Origin: a virus
Virus record (IMG/VR): IMGVR_UViG_3300032285_002860
Coordinates: 1 to 26,734 of that record
DNA: 26,734 bases
Direction: 5' to 3' (one strand)
Positions 6,987-26,001 of this stretch are shown piece after piece. The notes beneath the pieces were generated by a model. The model was not told the origin of the DNA, ran no database searches, and saw only the letters and a program-made list of their open reading frames with translations. Each line of letters starts with the position of its first letter. Within the stretch, counting starts at the first letter, position 1. A program made the position numbers and the translations under genes.

Positions 6987-9355
6987 TGGCGGGCTCTGTC
7001 TCCACCACCACCCCACAGGGGCTTCACGCGATCCTGTTTGGCCGTTCAATCTGGTCATCAACGACCACGACTGCCAACATCACTGCCGTTAGTGGAACTG
7101 GTGGACCGCCTAGTAGCGCAATCGTCACAGTAACCGCAAACAATAGTTTTACAGTTGGTCAGAATGTATCGCTCGTTGGCACGACCAACTATGACGGCAT
7201 CTACACCATTCTCACGGCGACTAGCACTCAGTTCACTTTCTCAAGTGGCAAGACCGGCGCAACCTCAACAGGCACAGCGGTCATCGTCACCCCACCCGGC
7301 ACCGCCGGTTCTGCCGATGCCTACGACAGCAACTACGCCTCAAGCGATGTTACCGCCTCACTGCTGTTTAATCTCGGTCCTAACGCTGTGGCAATCGGTG
7401 GACGACAGTTCATCGTAGATACCTCTGCTGACCCTTACCGTCGCGACTCGTTTAAGCACAAGTCCGTTCCCGCTCAGCGCCAGTCAATCAACCTCACCAA
7501 CATTGCCGGTGAAGGCACGATTAACACTGAGGGTCTGTGGCGCCGTGGTCAGGTGGACTGGTCAACCGGCGCAGGGCAGAAGTACCTTGACCGTAAGGCA
7601 ACCTCTGACGAGTCTCGCTTCTACCAGAGCAAGGGCGTGGACGTATTCGCCAGCCCTAACCAAGTCACCCTGCTGAACGCTACCAAGGCGATTCGCAGCT
7701 CAACCAACACCAACCTCAAGGTGACTCGCTGTGACGGCTACACCTACATCATTGACGGCAACGCGGTCTATGAGTGCGCCGACATAACCGTTGCCAGCCC
7801 CACGTGGACGACAATGACCTTCCACAACGCCACTGGTCACCCCACCCCTAGTTCGTTCTACTCCATTGACGCCAACGGATCATTCGTGTTCGTGGCAACC
7901 GACACCGGCATTTGGTACTACCGCGCTGGTGGCACAGGTGGCACAGTCCACCGCTTTGAGTGCTACGCCGAAAACGACACCGGCACCCAGTTCACCGGCT
8001 ACAACTTAGTGCGCTGGTGTAATGACCGCGTAGTCGCGGCATCGGGTATTCAGTTGTACTGCTTTGCCACTAACCATGTCACATGGCCCAATGCTGGTAA
8101 CGCCCCTACTACTGGCGCCGACAACCTCTATGCCATGAGCAACAACTTGGCATGGACGTGGAGTGACGCCTGTGCTGGTCCGTCCGCTATCTACTTTGGT
8201 GGCTACTCCCAGACCAACAGCGGTGGTTACAACGGCGGTGTGTTCAAGTCTGGCATCACCGTCAGCGGTACTACCGTCACGGTTGCCGTCCCCACACAGG
8301 CGCTACCAATGTCTCCCGATGAGTACCCCACCTGCTTACAGGGCTACTTGGACTACATTTTCATCGGCACCAACCGCGGTATCCGCATGACCCAGCCCGA
8401 CAGTCAGGGCGGTCTGACTAGCGGTGCCTCTCTGCCCACCATTGTCCAGCCGGTCAGCAAGCCGGTTCGAGCGATCACTGGTGACGGGCGCTTCGTGTGG
8501 TTTGGCTGGTCTAACTACGACACCGCCAGCACAGGTCTGGGCCGACTGAACCTGACCAACAACATCGCCAACCTAGCCTTGACCCCGGCGTATCAGTCCG
8601 ACCTTATGGTGGGCGGTCCCGGTGAAGTGCTAGACGCATCGTGGGACCCCAGCCTTGGTCAGCCCCTGTTCGCCGTTTCGGGCAAGGGCTTCTACACCAC
8701 CGACACCAGCAAGTATGTCACTCAGGGCTACATCAAGTCCGGCGGCATCACCTACGGCGTACCCGACCACAAGATTCCGGTGTTCTTTGACTACGGCGTG
8801 GACCAGCCCGACAACACCCCAGCCGGTGCCAGCGAAGGCTACGTCAGCGCAGAGCTTGAGATTGAGCCCTTTGACCCGTCACAAAAGCAGACCCTTACTA
8901 TCGCCCCCGCCAGCGAAGGTCAGAGCCAAGTCTCGATTCCGTCAGGTTCGGCCTACAAGAGCGAGATGTTCCAAGTCAATGTCTATCTAAACAGCGACAG
9001 CGCACAAGCGACCACGCCCACCCTGTACCGCTACACGCTTCTGTCGTGGCCCGCAACCGTCTCTGAGACGCAGATTATTGTGCCGATACAGTTGCACCTA
9101 GTCAATGTCGTGGACGGCTTAGAGACGTATGTGGACCCCTATGAAGCCTTTATGTACTTCGAGGACCTGCGCCAGAGTCAGACGATCATCACCTACCAAG
9201 AATCAACCCTCACGGCAAATGTCGTCATCACCCTGATTGACTGGCAACCTCACAAGCGACAGGGCAACTACGAGTCCGGCTTTGAGGGCAACTGCATCGT
9301 GTATCTACAAACGGTGGGCGGTTACAACCCCTACCCCGGAATCCCAACCAACTAG
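6986..9355 (+). CDS. Large tail protein, probable beta-propeller-type tail tube/nozzle
   Basis: The 789-aa product has an N-terminal low-complexity Thr/Ser-rich beta region (to about residue 110). A conserved-looking core follows (RRDSFKHKSVPAQRQSINLTNIAGEG...LWRRGQVDW). Repeated segments of blade-like pattern (YTYIIDGNAVYECA; FVFVATDTGIWYY; YIFIGTNRGIRM; FVWFGWSNYD) suggest a beta-propeller in residues ~240-560. The C-terminus is a beta domain. Size, propeller-like blades and position after the 337-aa protein resemble short-tailed phage nozzle proteins such as T7 gp12 (794 aa). No tape-measure gene is present in the window, consistent with a short tail. Confidence 0.55.
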   Translation: MAGSVSTTTPQGLHAILFGRSIWSSTTTTANITAVSGTGGPPSSAIVTVTANNSFTVGQNVSLVGTTNYDGIYTILTATSTQFTFSSGKTGATSTGTAVIVTPPGTAGSADAYDSNYASSDVTASLLFNLGPNAVAIGGRQFIVDTSADPYRRDSFKHKSVPAQRQSINLTNIAGEGTINTEGLWRRGQVDWSTGAGQKYLDRKATSDESRFYQSKGVDVFASPNQVTLLNATKAIRSSTNTNLKVTRCDGYTYIIDGNAVYECADITVASPTWTTMTFHNATGHPTPSSFYSIDANGSFVFVATDTGIWYYRAGGTGGTVHRFECYAENDTGTQFTGYNLVRWCNDRVVAASGIQLYCFATNHVTWPNAGNAPTTGADNLYAMSNNLAWTWSDACAGPSAIYFGGYSQTNSGGYNGGVFKSGITVSGTTVTVAVPTQALPMSPDEYPTCLQGYLDYIFIGTNRGIRMTQPDSQGGLTSGASLPTIVQPVSKPVRAITGDGRFVWFGWSNYDTASTGLGRLNLTNNIANLALTPAYQSDLMVGGPGEVLDASWDPSLGQPLFAVSGKGFYTTDTSKYVTQGYIKSGGITYGVPDHKIPVFFDYGVDQPDNTPAGASEGYVSAELEIEPFDPSQKQTLTIAPASEGQSQVSIPSGSAYKSEMFQVNVYLNSDSAQATTPTLYRYTLLSWPATVSETQIIVPIQLHLVNVVDGLETYVDPYEAFMYFEDLRQSQTIITYQESTLTANVVITLIDWQPHKRQGNYESGFEGNCIVYLQTVGGYNPYPGIPTN

Positions 9356-11100: not shown

Positions 11101-11621
11101 AGCAGGGTGACATTGTTATCTGCACCAGCAAAGGTCTAATCGGCGCCGGTATCCGCTGGGTACAGCACCGCAGCCGTAAGCACTACCTGATTCCCCCGAT
11201 TGACGGACGCGACAAGTGGTGGCGATACAACCACATCGCCGTAATCAACGCCGACATGGGCAACGGACAATGGACTATCTTCCAAGCCGAGGCTCGCGGC
11301 GTGACCGACTACCGCCTACTCAGCACTGTTGCCCCCGGTGGGCACTACCAAGTTATATCCCTGCCCGACAGCGTAGATCGAGACAAGTTCTTGGAGTTTC
11401 TGCGCGGTCAGGTGGGCAAGCACTACGGCTACATGTCTATCCTGTCCTGCTTCGTGGACCTCATTCTCCCCGACAAGATTTGCCTACGCCAGAGCGACAC
11501 ATGGATTTGCTCAGGGCTGGTGGCTGGCGCCCTCTGGTACAGCGGTTTCCCCAGTGCCTACAAGTGGCCCGATCTCTACACCGTTGTCCCCGCCGAAATA
11601 GCCGAGGCGTGTTCTAACTAG
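11097..11621 (+). CDS. Permuted NlpC/P60 (YiiX-like) hydrolase
   Basis: The start at GTG 11097 overlaps the previous stop (GTGA). The 174-aa product has the order expected of circularly permuted papain-fold enzymes: MKQGDIVICTS at the N-terminus, His46 in YNHIAVI, a Gln-Ala-Glu65 strand, and Cys138 late in TWICSGLVAGAL. This is the reverse of the Cys-before-His order in the endolysin. The family cleaves peptide or acyl amide/ester bonds, often in cell envelopes. Its position makes a second lysis or envelope-remodelling enzyme likely. The 3' end abuts a minus-strand tRNA-like gene. Confidence 0.65.
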   Translation: MKQGDIVICTSKGLIGAGIRWVQHRSRKHYLIPPIDGRDKWWRYNHIAVINADMGNGQWTIFQAEARGVTDYRLLSTVAPGGHYQVISLPDSVDRDKFLEFLRGQVGKHYGYMSILSCFVDLILPDKICLRQSDTWICSGLVAGALWYSGFPSAYKWPDLYTVVPAEIAEACSN

Positions 11622-11686
11622 TCCCTATGGGGGATACGAACCCCCTACTCCGGTTGCAACCAGCGTGTCGCCCACACTGCTAGGGA
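11622..11686 (-). tRNA. tRNA-like gene, possible tRNA-Cys(GCA), degenerate
   Basis: Read on the minus strand, the 65-nt element has a 5' TCCCTAG / 3' ATAGGGA acceptor (6 of 7 pairs), a short D-like arm (GTGT-GGGCG-ACAC), an arm CTGG-TTGCAA-CCGG whose 6-nt loop would present GCA, and a perfect T arm (GGGGG-TTCGTAT-CCCCC). The T arm is convincing. The total length, 5-nt D loop and 6-nt anticodon loop are below standard, so it may be a decayed or atypical tRNA. No CCA is encoded. Its 3' end touches the stop codon of the hydrolase gene on the other strand. Confidence 0.45.
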
Positions 11687-11688
11687 TA

Positions 11689-11776
11689 CCCCGTTGGCAG
11701 GATTCGAACCTGCACCTCATGATCCTCAAGACGTTTTTCAGGCGTCTTGAGATGCTCCCACTTACACCACAACGGT
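11689..11776 (-). tRNA. tRNA-like gene, possible tRNA-Phe(GAA), 88 nt with extended anticodon stem
   Basis: On the minus strand the acceptor is ACCGTTG with CAACGGG (6 of 7 pairs) and the T arm is GCAGG-TTCGAAT-CCTGC. The central hairpin carries CTGAAAA, the loop typical of tRNA-Phe, with GAA as anticodon. The stem around it is unusually long: nine perfect pairs plus a C.A mismatch (CTCAAGACG / CGTCTTGAG). The variable region is about 16 nt, giving class-II length. The identity is therefore uncertain. Only 2 nt separate it from the next tRNA-like gene, so both probably come from one transcript starting near 11,806. Confidence 0.5.
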
Positions 11777-11812
11777 GAATCCTTCCACACGTCTGCTTCA
11801 GAATCTAACCCT

Positions 11813-11841
11813 AGAGTAGCACGTCTAAAAGTGTTCGTAAA
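11813..11841 (-). promoter_or_regulatory. Minus-strand promoter for the tRNA-like pair
   Basis: On the minus strand TTTACG (11836-11841), a 17-bp spacer and TACTCT (11813-11818) preceded by GTGC form a sigma70-like promoter. Its 11-nt core GTGCTACTCTA is identical to that of the minus operon promoter near 24,170. Transcription would start near 11,806, about 30 nt before the first tRNA-like gene. Confidence 0.6.
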
Positions 11842-23098: not shown

Positions 23099-23261
23099 GC
23101 ATGGTGTCGCGGGCGCCCGTAATCGGGTAGGGCGTACCATGGGCGGGACTGTTTGCGGGCGTGAGACGGCACCTAGGCGGGCGTGATTCAAGCAACTTAA
23201 TGCGCCATTGGAGCGCGGGCGGGTATCGGCGGTCATGAGCATGGCGGGCGGGTGCCAGAAA

Positions 23262-23629: not shown

Positions 23630-24105
23630 TAGTTCTGCTCCCCTGAGCTCGAAAGAAAGGTAACGCCTGAATAGATTTCGTCACCCGCCGTGATTGCGTT
23701 CCATTCTTCAACAGTCAGGACGTGGGCGCATGTGTGCCATTCGGGGTGCGTGTCGTCGACATAGCCGTCAGTAATGAGCAGGCGCATGTTTTCGATTCCG
23801 CCGTCGTAATGGCGTACTAGAACGGTTTCGACCGTGTATTCAGCGTCATTGCTCAGTTCAGTGATAATGCGAGACTCAAACACGCGGGCGTGTTCGATCG
23901 CGTCACGGGTGAACGTTTTGGTGTATTCGCTTTCGCCGCATGCGATAAGGACGGCTAGGCGCCCTACGGCAATGCTCAGCATTTCGTACTGCTCACTGTG
24001 CGCATTTGCTACGCCGTCGCTCCATTGGAGCGTGTAGCCGTTGTCGTCTCCAAGTATTTGGATAGACACGTCGCCGTAGGCGGTGTCAATAACGGTGTGT
24101 GCCAT
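23629..24105 (-). CDS. Unknown protein, first gene of minus operon (158 aa)
   Basis: The 158-aa acidic protein begins MAHTVIDTAYGDVSIQILGDDNGYTLQWSDG and contains alternating beta and helical segments; a C-terminal HVLTVEEWNAI helix is visible. No catalytic or metal motif is seen. Its ATG lies two nucleotides after the Shine-Dalgarno hairpin at 24,108. It is transcribed from the promoter near 24,170 against the direction of nearly all other genes, which often marks an early or lysogeny-independent control module in phages. Confidence 0.7.
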   Translation of the reverse strand: MAHTVIDTAYGDVSIQILGDDNGYTLQWSDGVANAHSEQYEMLSIAVGRLAVLIACGESEYTKTFTRDAIEHARVFESRIITELSNDAEYTVETVLVRHYDGGIENMRLLITDGYVDDTHPEWHTCAHVLTVEEWNAITAGDEIYSGVTFLSSSGEQN

Positions 24106-24168: not shown

Positions 24169-24197
24169 AGAGTAGCACACTCTCACGCCATGCGTGG
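24169..24197 (-). promoter_or_regulatory. Minus operon promoter with overlapping palindrome
   Basis: TACTCT (24169-24174) preceded by GTGTGC forms an extended -10 identical over 11 nt (GTGCTACTCTA) to the tRNA promoter. No good -35 is present; instead a perfect palindrome CACGC-CAT-GCGTG (24184-24196) covers that position and could bind an activator or repressor. Confidence 0.55.
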
Positions 24198-24249
24198 CAT
24201 TTCACTAGATCAGAATGGAGCAGGGTTAGAAGTGACTTAGCCCATCTCC

Positions 24250-24435
24250 CCACTTATCCACTTACTTTACACAGGTTCCCCCACAACCCCCAAACTCTGA
24301 CCCGGTGTGTGCCCAGAGGGGGTGTGTTTCCTATATATGTTATCTCTTCGCTGGGAAACTATCACTTTTTGCCTGATGAGGTGGGTTGAACGGGGTGTGG
24401 GTAACCATGTGGGTACAGCTGTGTGGAACAGATCG
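24250..24435. other. Candidate replication origin (DnaA-box-like cluster)
   Basis: TTATCCACT (24254-24262) is one base from the DnaA box TTATCCACA. Three reverse-orientation, box-like copies lie about 12-14 bp apart: TGTGGGTAA (24396-24404), TGTGGGTAC (24408-24416) and TGTGGAACA (24422-24430). An A+T-rich stretch with TATATATG (about 24,334) lies between. The segment has no credible gene and sits between the minus operon promoter and the RNA block. A phage initiator binding these as iterons is also possible. Confidence 0.4.
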
Positions 24436-24551
24436 CGGCGGGCGTGGGGCTCAAGAATGGCTGTCATCAGCGGTGTCAATCAGTGCTGTAAAAACTGGTG
24501 TCAAAGGGGGTCAGGTTGGTCTGGTTATTTGATGCCGTGAGAACGCCACAC

Positions 24552-24626
24552 AGACCCCTTAGCGACCAGCCTAAGAGAAGCCACAGCGCACCCCGCGGGG
24601 GCTCGAACTAGACACCTTGGCGACCA
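24552..24626 (-). repeat. Pair of 17-bp direct repeats within unit D
   Basis: AGACCCCTTAGCGACCA (24552-24568) and AGACACCTTGGCGACCA (24610-24626) match at 15 of 17 positions and lie 58 bp apart near the 3' part of the RNA candidate. They could form alternative pairings with the GACCCCCTT segment at the 3' end. Confidence 0.5.
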
Positions 24627-24652
24627 ACTACACGCCTGAGCATCTTCGCCTG

Positions 24653-24705
24653 ACAAGCAAGTATCGTTTCTAAGTCACCACAAGACAAGTATCCCGGCAG
24701 TCACC
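24653..24705 (-). repeat. Tandem imperfect repeat inside unit D
   Basis: Two directly adjacent units of 27 bp (24653-24679) and 26 bp (24680-24705) share, in minus-strand sense, GGTGACT, then a variable 5-7 nt, then GATACTTG and CTTGT. The tandem copy is consistent with a repeated RNA substructure. Confidence 0.55.
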
Positions 24706-25028
24706 AATGGTTTTACCCACGCCAATCCACCCGGCTTGTTTCAGCAGCTTCTCTCATCTGCGCGAATCTCAGAACAATGAGCCCACTTCTTCCGTCGCAC
24801 GAAGTGGTTGCCTGTGAAGTCTCGATATCGCCACCGGGGTGTCCGGTTGTTCGGCGGGTCATTTCCACCAGTACGGTGATCATTGCGTACTGGGCACAGG
24901 CTACTGAACTCAGCTCTAACCTGAGTACACCGGAGATAGTCACTGGCCCAAGTTCCCGCGAGTATGTGGCGGCAGGTCAATCTCTTCCGGTGGGGCCCCA
25001 GCCCTATGGACGCTTTCGCGTGACCTCA

Positions 25029-25038
25029 AGTGTAGCAC
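25029..25038 (-). promoter_or_regulatory. Extended -10 promoter of unit D
   Basis: Minus-strand GTGCTACACT gives -10 TACACT (25029-25034). The expected start at about 25,022 coincides with the GNRA-capped hairpin. No clear -35 is seen at 17 bp. Confidence 0.45.
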
Positions 25039-25039
25039 A

Positions 25040-25138
25040 TACTGTGACGCACCAATGCCACCCTTACCCGATCCTGCTTCCCAGCGGTATCGAATACGGG
25101 TGGCGTCCTTGAGTGTGCCGGGTTAGAAGTTCCCCGAC
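25040..25138 (-). ncRNA. Candidate structured small RNA (unit C)
   Basis: From the promoter at 25145-25154 the minus strand encodes a CGGG/CCCG hairpin, then a perfect 7-bp stem (GGGTGGC 25098-25104 with GCCACCC 25057-25063) enclosing GTAT-CGA-ATAC (25087-25097) and a GCT/AGC hairpin. No T tract is seen before the next promoter, so it may read through into unit D. Confidence 0.4.
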
Positions 25139-25144
25139 GAGCTC

Positions 25145-25154
25145 ATCGTAGCAC
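25145..25154 (-). promoter_or_regulatory. Extended -10 promoter of unit C
   Basis: Minus-strand GTGCTACGAT gives -10 TACGAT (25145-25150), identical over 11 nt (GTGCTACGATG) to the unit A promoter at 25238. It abuts the unit A terminator's T tract directly. Confidence 0.5.
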
Positions 25155-25190
25155 AGAAAATCCCCCCCGGCGGCAACCGAGGGGGATTCT
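25155..25190 (-). terminator. Rho-independent terminator of unit A
   Basis: An 8-bp GC-rich stem AATCCCCC / GGGGGATT with a loop containing a further CGG/CCG pairing, and a T run on the minus strand. On the plus strand it lacks a T tract, so it mainly serves minus transcripts. Confidence 0.75.
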
Positions 25191-25231
25191 TGGCGAGGAT
25201 TTTGCATTACCGTTCGCCCTTAAATGAACAC
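25155..25231 (-). ncRNA. Candidate small RNA with terminator (unit A)
   Basis: The promoter at 25238 would start a ~75-nt minus transcript near 25,231 that ends in a textbook terminator: AATCCCCC (25159-25166) pairs with GGGGGATT (25181-25188) and is followed by TTTTC on the minus strand. No ORF with a start and ribosome site fits. It contains GGTAATGCAA (minus sense, 25202-25211), the exact complement of a segment of unit B. Confidence 0.5.
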
Positions 25232-25237
25232 GACTAC

Positions 25238-25247
25238 ATCGTAGCAC
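25238..25247 (-). promoter_or_regulatory. Extended -10 promoter of unit A
   Basis: Minus-strand GTGCTACGAT, -10 TACGAT (25238-25243). The two 18-bp direct repeats at 25266 and 25306 lie upstream, where control proteins would bind. Confidence 0.5.
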
Positions 25248-25265
25248 TTTTGTCGTTATCTCCCT

Positions 25266-25323
25266 AACCTTTAACACGGGCCGTCGCTATTAAAGTTTAA
25301 GGCGCAACCTTTAACACGGGCCG
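25266..25323. repeat. Two perfect 18-bp direct repeats upstream of unit A
   Basis: AACCTTTAACACGGGCCG occurs at 25266-25283 and 25306-25323, 40 bp apart (about four helical turns). Between them is the perfect palindrome TTAAA-G-TTTAA (25290-25300). Such spacing suggests operator sites for a looping or cooperative regulator, or a pair of phage-specific promoter elements. Confidence 0.6.
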
Positions 25324-25326
25324 ACA

Positions 25327-25342
25327 ATACCGAAAACGGTAT
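25327..25342. other. Perfect hairpin with A4/T4 loop
   Basis: ATACCG-AAAA-CGGTAT is a perfect 6-bp inverted repeat. Around it GCCAAATC occurs twice (25349-25356 and 25372-25379, 23 bp apart). On the minus strand TATTAT (25359-25364) is a possible extra -10. No T tract follows, so its role is unknown. Confidence 0.4.
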
Positions 25343-25401
25343 GGTTCTGCCAAATCAGATAATAGATCGCCGCCAAATCGCATAACTAAAGTTGAGCCGT
25401 C

Positions 25402-25496
25402 TCAAAAGCAAAGTCCCCGCCAGCCAAGGGGGGGAGCTGACGGGGACTTCGTTCGCAGGGTAATGCAACGCCGGGAAACGCTCCCGGTTAGGTAAG
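25402..25496 (-). ncRNA. Candidate small RNA with terminator (unit B)
   Basis: Minus-strand CTGCTACTAT (-10 TACTAT, 25503-25508) would start an RNA near 25,496. It carries a TAGGT-AAG-ACCTA arm near the start (25489-25501), a perfect CCGGGA/TCCCGG hairpin (25471-25487), then a terminator stem AAGTCCCCG (25411-25419) / CGGGGACTT (25441-25449) with inner CAGC/GCTG, followed by TGCTTTTG on the minus strand. It contains TTGCATTACC, complementary over 10 nt to unit A. No coding potential is evident. Confidence 0.45.
25411..25449 (-). terminator. Strong terminator hairpin of unit B
   Basis: A 9-bp perfect stem plus a 4-bp inner stem separated by a one-base mismatch, with a T-rich flank only on the minus strand (TTTGCTTTT). 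It also shields the RNA block from the peptidase gene to the right. Confidence 0.6.
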
Positions 25497-25502
25497 ACCT
25501 AC

Positions 25503-25512
25503 ATAGTAGCAG
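25503..25512 (-). promoter_or_regulatory. Extended -10 promoter of unit B
   Basis: Minus-strand CTGCTACTAT, -10 TACTAT at 25503-25508. It faces the plus promoter at 25516 so the two overlap, which would make them compete. Confidence 0.4.
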
Positions 25513-25527: not shown

Positions 25528-26001
25528 GTGACAGTTATCGCAGGATTTACCAACGGCAAGGACTACGCGATTGGCGCGGACAGTGGTGCCTTTGAGGACG
25601 GTTCGTATCTCTACGCTCAGACCAAAACGCCCAAGGCGTGGTCAGTCGGCGGTACGCTCATCGGCGGGGTGGGCTCGTTTCGATCTATCCACATCGCCAA
25701 GAGTTCCGGTCTTGATGATCCCCACAAGTTGCTCACCCACCTTCTTGAGCAATCAGCCCCAGCGGGCTGGAGTTTGTTGCTGGTGACCCGCAAGGCGATT
25801 ACTGAGGTATCGGACGAAGGCGGGGTCACGGTGTACCGGGCACACTACGGCGCAATCGGGGCCGGTGCTTCAATCGCTATCGGTGCTATGGCGGCGTCAG
25901 ACAAGTTTGCACGTAGTGCAGACGTAGTACGTCGAGCCATGGAAATCACCGGCAACCATTCCCTCTACTGTGTGCCGCCATACCTGTATTTTTCTAAATA
26001 A
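25528..26001 (+). CDS. Proteasome beta / HslV-like Ntn-hydrolase
   Basis: The 157-aa product begins M-Thr2-VIAGFTNGKDYAIGADSG. Removing Met exposes Thr1; then Asp17 (GADSG) and Lys32 fall at the places of the proteasome catalytic Thr1-Asp17-Lys33. Next come GGTLIGGVGSFR, as in the G-x-x-G-x turn of HslV and beta subunits, and YGAIGAGASIAIGAMAAS..A..VVRRAMEITGNHS, as in their late segment. It is short (HslV is ~175 aa). It may form a ring with ATP-dependent unfoldases of the host or act alone. It appears expressed from a leaderless mRNA. An inactive relative is possible, but the triad argues otherwise. Confidence 0.75.
   Translation: MTVIAGFTNGKDYAIGADSGAFEDGSYLYAQTKTPKAWSVGGTLIGGVGSFRSIHIAKSSGLDDPHKLLTHLLEQSAPAGWSLLLVTRKAITEVSDEGGVTVYRAHYGAIGAGASIAIGAMAASDKFARSADVVRRAMEITGNHSLYCVPPYLYFSK

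Follow-up and report, generated by a model that had tools for sequence, protein, structure and literature searches.

The question raised by this locus is whether a gap without genes in a phage genome encodes a dedicated RNA and, if so, what that RNA might do. The linear IMG/VR record IMGVR_UViG_3300032285_002860, analyzed here over its entire 26.7 kb (26,734 nt; referred to below as the window), contains a 1.4-kb (1,422-bp) gap between a leftward gene (24105-23629) and its divergent neighbor on the plus strand, a gene for an HslV-family peptidase-like protein (25528-26001; PHROG 1040, E = 1e-9). An earlier, sequence-only reading had described this kilobase as devoid of genes, and it is indeed non-coding: codon scores are negative for all ORFs of the gap, and most real genes score positive. 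The capsid protein encoded in the window is ∼40% identical to the capsid proteins of Streptomyces phages of the Beephvirinae and is also related to that of the LanE43-AprE7 record, a phage of “Candidatus Planktophila”; because of these relationships, a freshwater actinobacterium is the likely host. A WhiB-like protein is also encoded by one relative, and the capsid protein was not found in the bacterial and archaeal genome collection. Relatives of the HslV-like gene occur in many freshwater phage contigs of up to 121 kb, in other genomic settings as well.

Searches with blastn of the gap sequence, and of the corresponding RNA from the contig L163, against 50,697 phage records gave no match; the capsid protein (80 loci), the HslV-like protein, and DNA motifs served to identify relatives. 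Units of the window type were found in four records, referred to here as L121, L118/G051, L288, and L120. L121 has counterparts of all four proposed units, arranged as in the window (B, A, C, D), with D 86% identical over ∼430 nt. In L118/G051, unit B and a repeat pair are followed directly by D, which is 81% identical over 206 nt; the HslV-like neighbor protein of this phage is only 42% identical, so the core of D is better conserved than the adjacent protein. L288 has B directly followed by D, without A or C, and L120 has B and C, after which the contig is cut off.

The four leftward extended -10 boxes reported at 25503, 25238, 25145, and 25029 are all present on the minus strand. The unit B box is TGCTACTAT (25503-25511), with a TGCTA box in the same place in L118 and L120. 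Units A (25238-25246) and C (25145-25153) share the box TGCTACGAT, whose counterparts are TGCTATCAT for unit A of L121 and, for unit C, TGCTAGAGT in L121 and TGCTATGGT in L120. The unit D box, TGCTACACT (25029-25037), is identical in L288 and reads TGGTACAAT in L121. A fifth box, TGCTACTCT (24169-24177, minus strand), precedes the next leftward gene, which starts at 24105. Five TGCTANNNT boxes on one strand of 1,422 bp are about twenty times the expectation of 0.24 (Poisson P ∼5e-6); the window as a whole shows no excess of the motif (11 found, 9.0 expected). An operator-like pair of 18-bp direct repeats, CGGCCCGTGTTAAAGGTT (25266-25323, minus strand), precedes the unit A promoter, and both L118 and the record G004 have a 52-bp match to this region, 81% identical, upstream of the promoter of D. 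Pairs of 10- to 18-bp direct repeats precede RNA-unit promoters in the window, L121, L120, L222, and L163, and their sequences differ from phage to phage, as would suit a rapidly changing regulator encoded by the phage.

Two of the units were said to end in clear terminators, and these are B and A. Unit B (25405-25497, minus strand) is predicted to fold into a 5′ hairpin and a strong terminator hairpin (arms 25449-25436 and 25424-25411) with a T run; this two-hairpin layout beside the HslV-like gene is seen in the window and seven relatives. B is predicted to be a separate, terminator-ended small RNA of ∼90 nt with a conserved layout. In the window and L120, its terminator has a C-rich loop reminiscent of 6C RNA (RF01066), an actinobacterial small RNA with C-rich loops, but this loop is lost in L121, and the identification was rejected at a score of 21.5 bits against the 47-bit Rfam gathering cut-off. 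Unit A (25157-25232, minus strand) is predicted to be a short RNA ending in a strong terminator hairpin (∼25188-25157) with a T run, and this T tract directly adjoins the promoter of unit C, in line with the earlier description. The terminator has a counterpart with 93% identity over 28 nt in L121, the sole relative that shows unit A, which is absent from L288. Unit C (25057-25104, minus strand) is a predicted hairpin with a UGGGAA hexaloop whose stem is maintained by different bases in L120 and L121; in L118 and L266 the same hairpin sits inside helix P3 of the RNA described below. Neither C nor D has a clear terminator. By these comparisons, only B and D are conserved, A and C being accessory units that vary among the phages, and the notion of four equivalent units in tandem does not hold. 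Antisense pairing between B and A was also rejected, as it is not conserved: the two are complementary at 13 of 15 positions in the window (10 perfect pairs), and the longest match in L121 is 6 nt.

Unit D (24240-25022, minus strand; the 5′ end, at P1, is placed from the promoter, and the 3′ limit is provisional) is the predicted large RNA of the locus, with an estimated length of roughly 0.35 to 0.8 kb. The block first delineated at 24490-25508 is real, but sequence comparison extends the conserved region beyond 24490, to ∼24240. The description of the units as densely folded does not hold for unit D in terms of energy: its folding energy is unremarkable against shuffled sequence (z = +0.73), and neither strand folds better than shuffled. 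Single-sequence folding could not decide on a structure, and the evidence for structure, which does stand, is therefore comparative. Sequences related to unit D were recognized, by eye and with nhmmer, upstream of the HslV-like gene in L149-L157, L163, L129, and L116. The motif AGTTAGCCGGTTAGAGCGG of this wider family was detected in 28 viral contigs and was absent from the bacterial and archaeal genome collection; a pattern match in L205 was discarded as a single motif match within unrelated sequence.

The predicted order of elements in the family starts with the P1 hairpin, which has an 8-nt loop, often ending in UGGGA. It is followed by P2, a T-loop-like hairpin of the form GGG-UGNAAGU-CCC that is found in most relatives and of which the window keeps the stem but not the loop; P3, which encloses a variable hairpin; P4, with an invariant GUYAGAG loop resembling the tRNA D arm; P5, which encloses P6 and P7; and P8, whose loop in L273 and the window type reads UGCGA..GAA. 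The core of the window RNA, with helices P3 to P8 supported by covariation, occupies positions 24783-24992 of the minus strand, with P4 at 24925-24909, P5 at 24901-24895/24816-24810, P6 at 24893-24868, P7 at 24856-24829, and P8 at 24807-24783. After P8 come short conserved elements, in the family notably AATGACAGTT and CTCGGCACACACCCGGTCA and in the window, by sequence comparison, AGTGATAGTTTCC, CTCTGGGCACACACCGGGTCA, and GATGGGCT (24240-24370, minus strand). A form of the second 3′ element is also present in G014, a record without a match to the family model, and these elements could be either a 3′ domain of the RNA or a DNA site. In two relatives, type II hammerhead ribozymes (RF02276; 40 to 41 bits, cut-off 37) are found ∼1 kb downstream of the RNA and on the same strand (L264:570-631 and L266:537-598, both minus), which suggests long leftward transcripts there; the Rfam search detected no hammerhead in the window.

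Covariance models were built in both directions, and the E-values of these models, made in the course of this analysis, are rough. The first model, R1, represents the 5′ part of the wider family and was derived from ten sequences, none of them of the window type; its alignment has 97% paired cells and 23 double-change cells, versus 8 in shuffles. R1 matches 15 of the 34 capsid-related records and 8 of the 33 HslV-related records, mostly with E below 1e-20, as well as the bridging phage L118 (E = 1.2e-7), and has no match in the HslV-bearing records above 60 kb of the HslV-related set. Unit D of the window and that of L121 are not found by R1 directly; the link runs via L118 and the reciprocal model, R2, made from the four window-type sequences only. 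R2 matches members of the other lineage, L273 (E = 1.4e-7) and L257 (E = 3.3e-4), and 12 of the 12 non-window matches listed fall, in the correct orientation, on sites also found by R1; its match at 24781-24928 of the window is to a sequence of its own training set. Of the other R1 matches, one at 7161-7251 of the window (E = 0.14) falls inside a structural gene and was taken as chance, and those in the Streptomyces phages Kumquat and Abafar overlap annotated tRNA genes.

Compensatory covariation exceeds the controls at each level of comparison. The window-type alignment contains 12 double-change cells versus 4.8 in its control, and the enlarged alignment, which was fitted to the model, contains 86, versus 28.7 in shuffled and at most 8 in slid alignments. 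Helix P5, which lies outside R1, is fully paired in all nine distinct sequence combinations, the window included, versus 69% in shuffled ones. A descriptor combining the P4 stem and its GTYAGAG loop with a subsequent 7-bp P5 has a single site in the window, at unit D, against 0.04 expected. Given that an alignment fitted to a model leans toward it and that kinship makes the sequences non-independent, most weight falls on the reciprocal search and on P5, and on these comparisons the homology of unit D with the wider RNA family can be regarded as established. A coding gene in unit D can be ruled out, as the codon scores are negative and there is no codon-phase signal; in addition, every frame has stops in at least one relative.

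On the other side of the RNA, the relatives encode the terminase large subunit (PHROG 38) and the portal protein (PHROG 104). The terminase is present in 23 of the 23 model-positive records, with the RNA upstream of it, divergently oriented, at a distance of 0.9 to 2.3 kb (median, 1.1 kb), and also in twelve further contigs carrying the RNA (in L120, units B and C); the window contig ends before the terminase. Most of the records without an R1 match lack the region, and G010 has another gene there. G014 and G018 (61% terminase identity) have neither an R1 match nor a detectable version of the RNA, which is therefore not universal. In the Streptomyces relatives, genome ends with direct terminal repeats fall in the corresponding gap. 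The terminal-repeat boundary of Kumquat and the GATGGGCT element are alike over a few bases only, and this similarity was not used as evidence. Two contigs have unusual layouts: the 65-kb G007 (IMGVR_UViG_3300025400_000015) carries two different copies of the RNA, at 23107 and 62799, and two terminase genes ∼39.5 kb apart, and possibly consists of two genomes joined in assembly; G015 (41,069 bp), whose terminase is split across both contig ends, is for that reason probably a complete, circularly assembled genome of ∼41 kb.

None of the Rfam 15 families matches the RNA in the window or in the relatives searched, where the only matches above the gathering cut-off were the window tRNA and the two hammerheads downstream of the RNA. 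The models of GOLLD, ROOL, and OLE, proposed earlier as a check, gave no match, with E values of up to 5 considered for the window block and of up to 0.2 to 2 for the relatives. There is no tRNA or tmRNA in the block. P4 (GCCGGUUAGAGCGG) resembles a D arm and P2 (GGGUGNAAGUCCC) a T-loop hairpin, but, unlike tRNA, the RNA has neither an acceptor nor an anticodon arm. The Rfam models of group I and group II introns matched neither the window nor the relatives, and the RNA, which has a promoter box of its own, lies between genes. The tRNA-Phe-like gene of the window (11688-11777, minus strand) has an unusually long anticodon stem; a TGCTACTCT box is located upstream of it, at 11813, and the region 11610-11821 (minus strand) includes, after this gene, a second tRNA-like stretch not called by ARAGORN.

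With its own extended -10 box, an order of helices supported by compensatory changes, and a fixed divergence from the terminase-portal genes, unit D very probably represents a standalone, non-coding, conserved structured RNA gene of phages, from a family absent from Rfam. The earlier suggestion of a dedicated RNA module or a large ornate RNA has thus been borne out for a conserved, covarying, non-coding unit seen in dozens of related phages. This degree of confidence applies to the identity of unit D as a conserved structured RNA gene and not to its function.

As for the function, a phage regulator might act on the repeat pair upstream, and the transcript would fold into a compact particle displaying the D-arm-like P4 (GUYAGAG) and, in most relatives, the T-loop-like P2. 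Such an RNA would act in trans, presumably late in infection, and its most plausible partner would be the adjacent packaging and head-assembly machinery. A late role tied to packaging or assembly is proposed here tentatively. The obvious precedent is the pRNA of phage phi29, the gene for which adjoins a genome end and the working form of which is ∼120 nt. Both are phage RNAs encoded near packaging functions, and genome ends fall in the corresponding gap of relatives of the window phage; however, pRNA is far smaller than the unit D RNA, the relatives of the window phage carry a conventional terminase large subunit, and the pRNA family had no Rfam match in the window, where the tRNA alone reached the gathering threshold. 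The more specific notion of a pRNA-like partner working with a conventional terminase outside the phi29 group, and encoded divergently from it throughout a whole lineage of freshwater actinophages, is doubtful.

About as probable as a role in packaging or assembly is that the RNA belongs with GOLLD and ROOL as an RNA-only structural or host-directed molecule, its proximity to the terminase being incidental. It could then self-assemble or use the hairpins that resemble a D arm and a T loop to bind the ribosome or tRNA-handling enzymes, and it would lie where it does because the genome offers no other large gap. GOLLD and ROOL, both phage RNAs, assemble into homo-oligomeric cages and are still without a described function (PMC12286853); the new RNA is likewise large, multi-helix, phage-encoded, and non-coding, and its size and complexity, the resemblance of P4 and P2 to tRNA arms, and the R1 cross-matches to tRNA genes in the two Streptomyces phages all fit this possibility. 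However, GOLLD and ROOL are reported to occur near tRNA islands (PMC12286853), whereas the new RNA is always found beside the terminase, the only tRNA of the window being that at 11688-11777. Many GOLLD RNAs, at more than 800 nt, are also longer than the new RNA (PMC12286853), and no tested member of the new family has an Rfam match.

Ranked below both of these is an unlikely third possibility, a transcript acting in cis at a genome terminus or replication origin, where it would, for example, open the DNA or mark the packaging site, with the conserved 3′ elements serving as DNA sites. It draws on the terminal repeats of the Streptomyces relatives and on the occurrence of the CTCGGCACA..GGTCA element in G014, which has no R1 match. 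The cumulative GC skew of the window, with a minimum at ∼11 to 15 kb, turns a second time at ∼24 kb, adjoining the RNA block, which is compatible with a replication or packaging boundary. Nevertheless, compensatory changes in a folded core of 250 nt call for a function as RNA, and the contig ends give no fixed terminus. It is highly improbable that unit D is a 5′ leader, acting as a riboswitch or attenuator, of the leftward operon that begins at 24105: the next gene does follow downstream on the same strand, but it has its own TGCTACTCT box at 24169, the genes located downstream differ among G083, G024, G026, and the window, and the closest long downstream ORFs of G083 that match a family are encoded by the opposite strand. 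That the hairpins and the boxes resembling promoters are a chance pattern in ordinary spacer DNA, with which the lack of window-wide box enrichment and the folding z score of unit D (+0.7) would agree, is contradicted by the conservation, reciprocal model matches, and covariation and can be dismissed.

Whatever its function, the RNA adds a probable new family, from little-studied freshwater viruses, to the few large structured RNAs of phages. Its strict genomic partner, the terminase-portal genes, together with the conserved promoter and clear covariation, makes the function directly testable. Should the role in packaging prove true, the phi29 group would cease to be the only one with RNA in its packaging motor.
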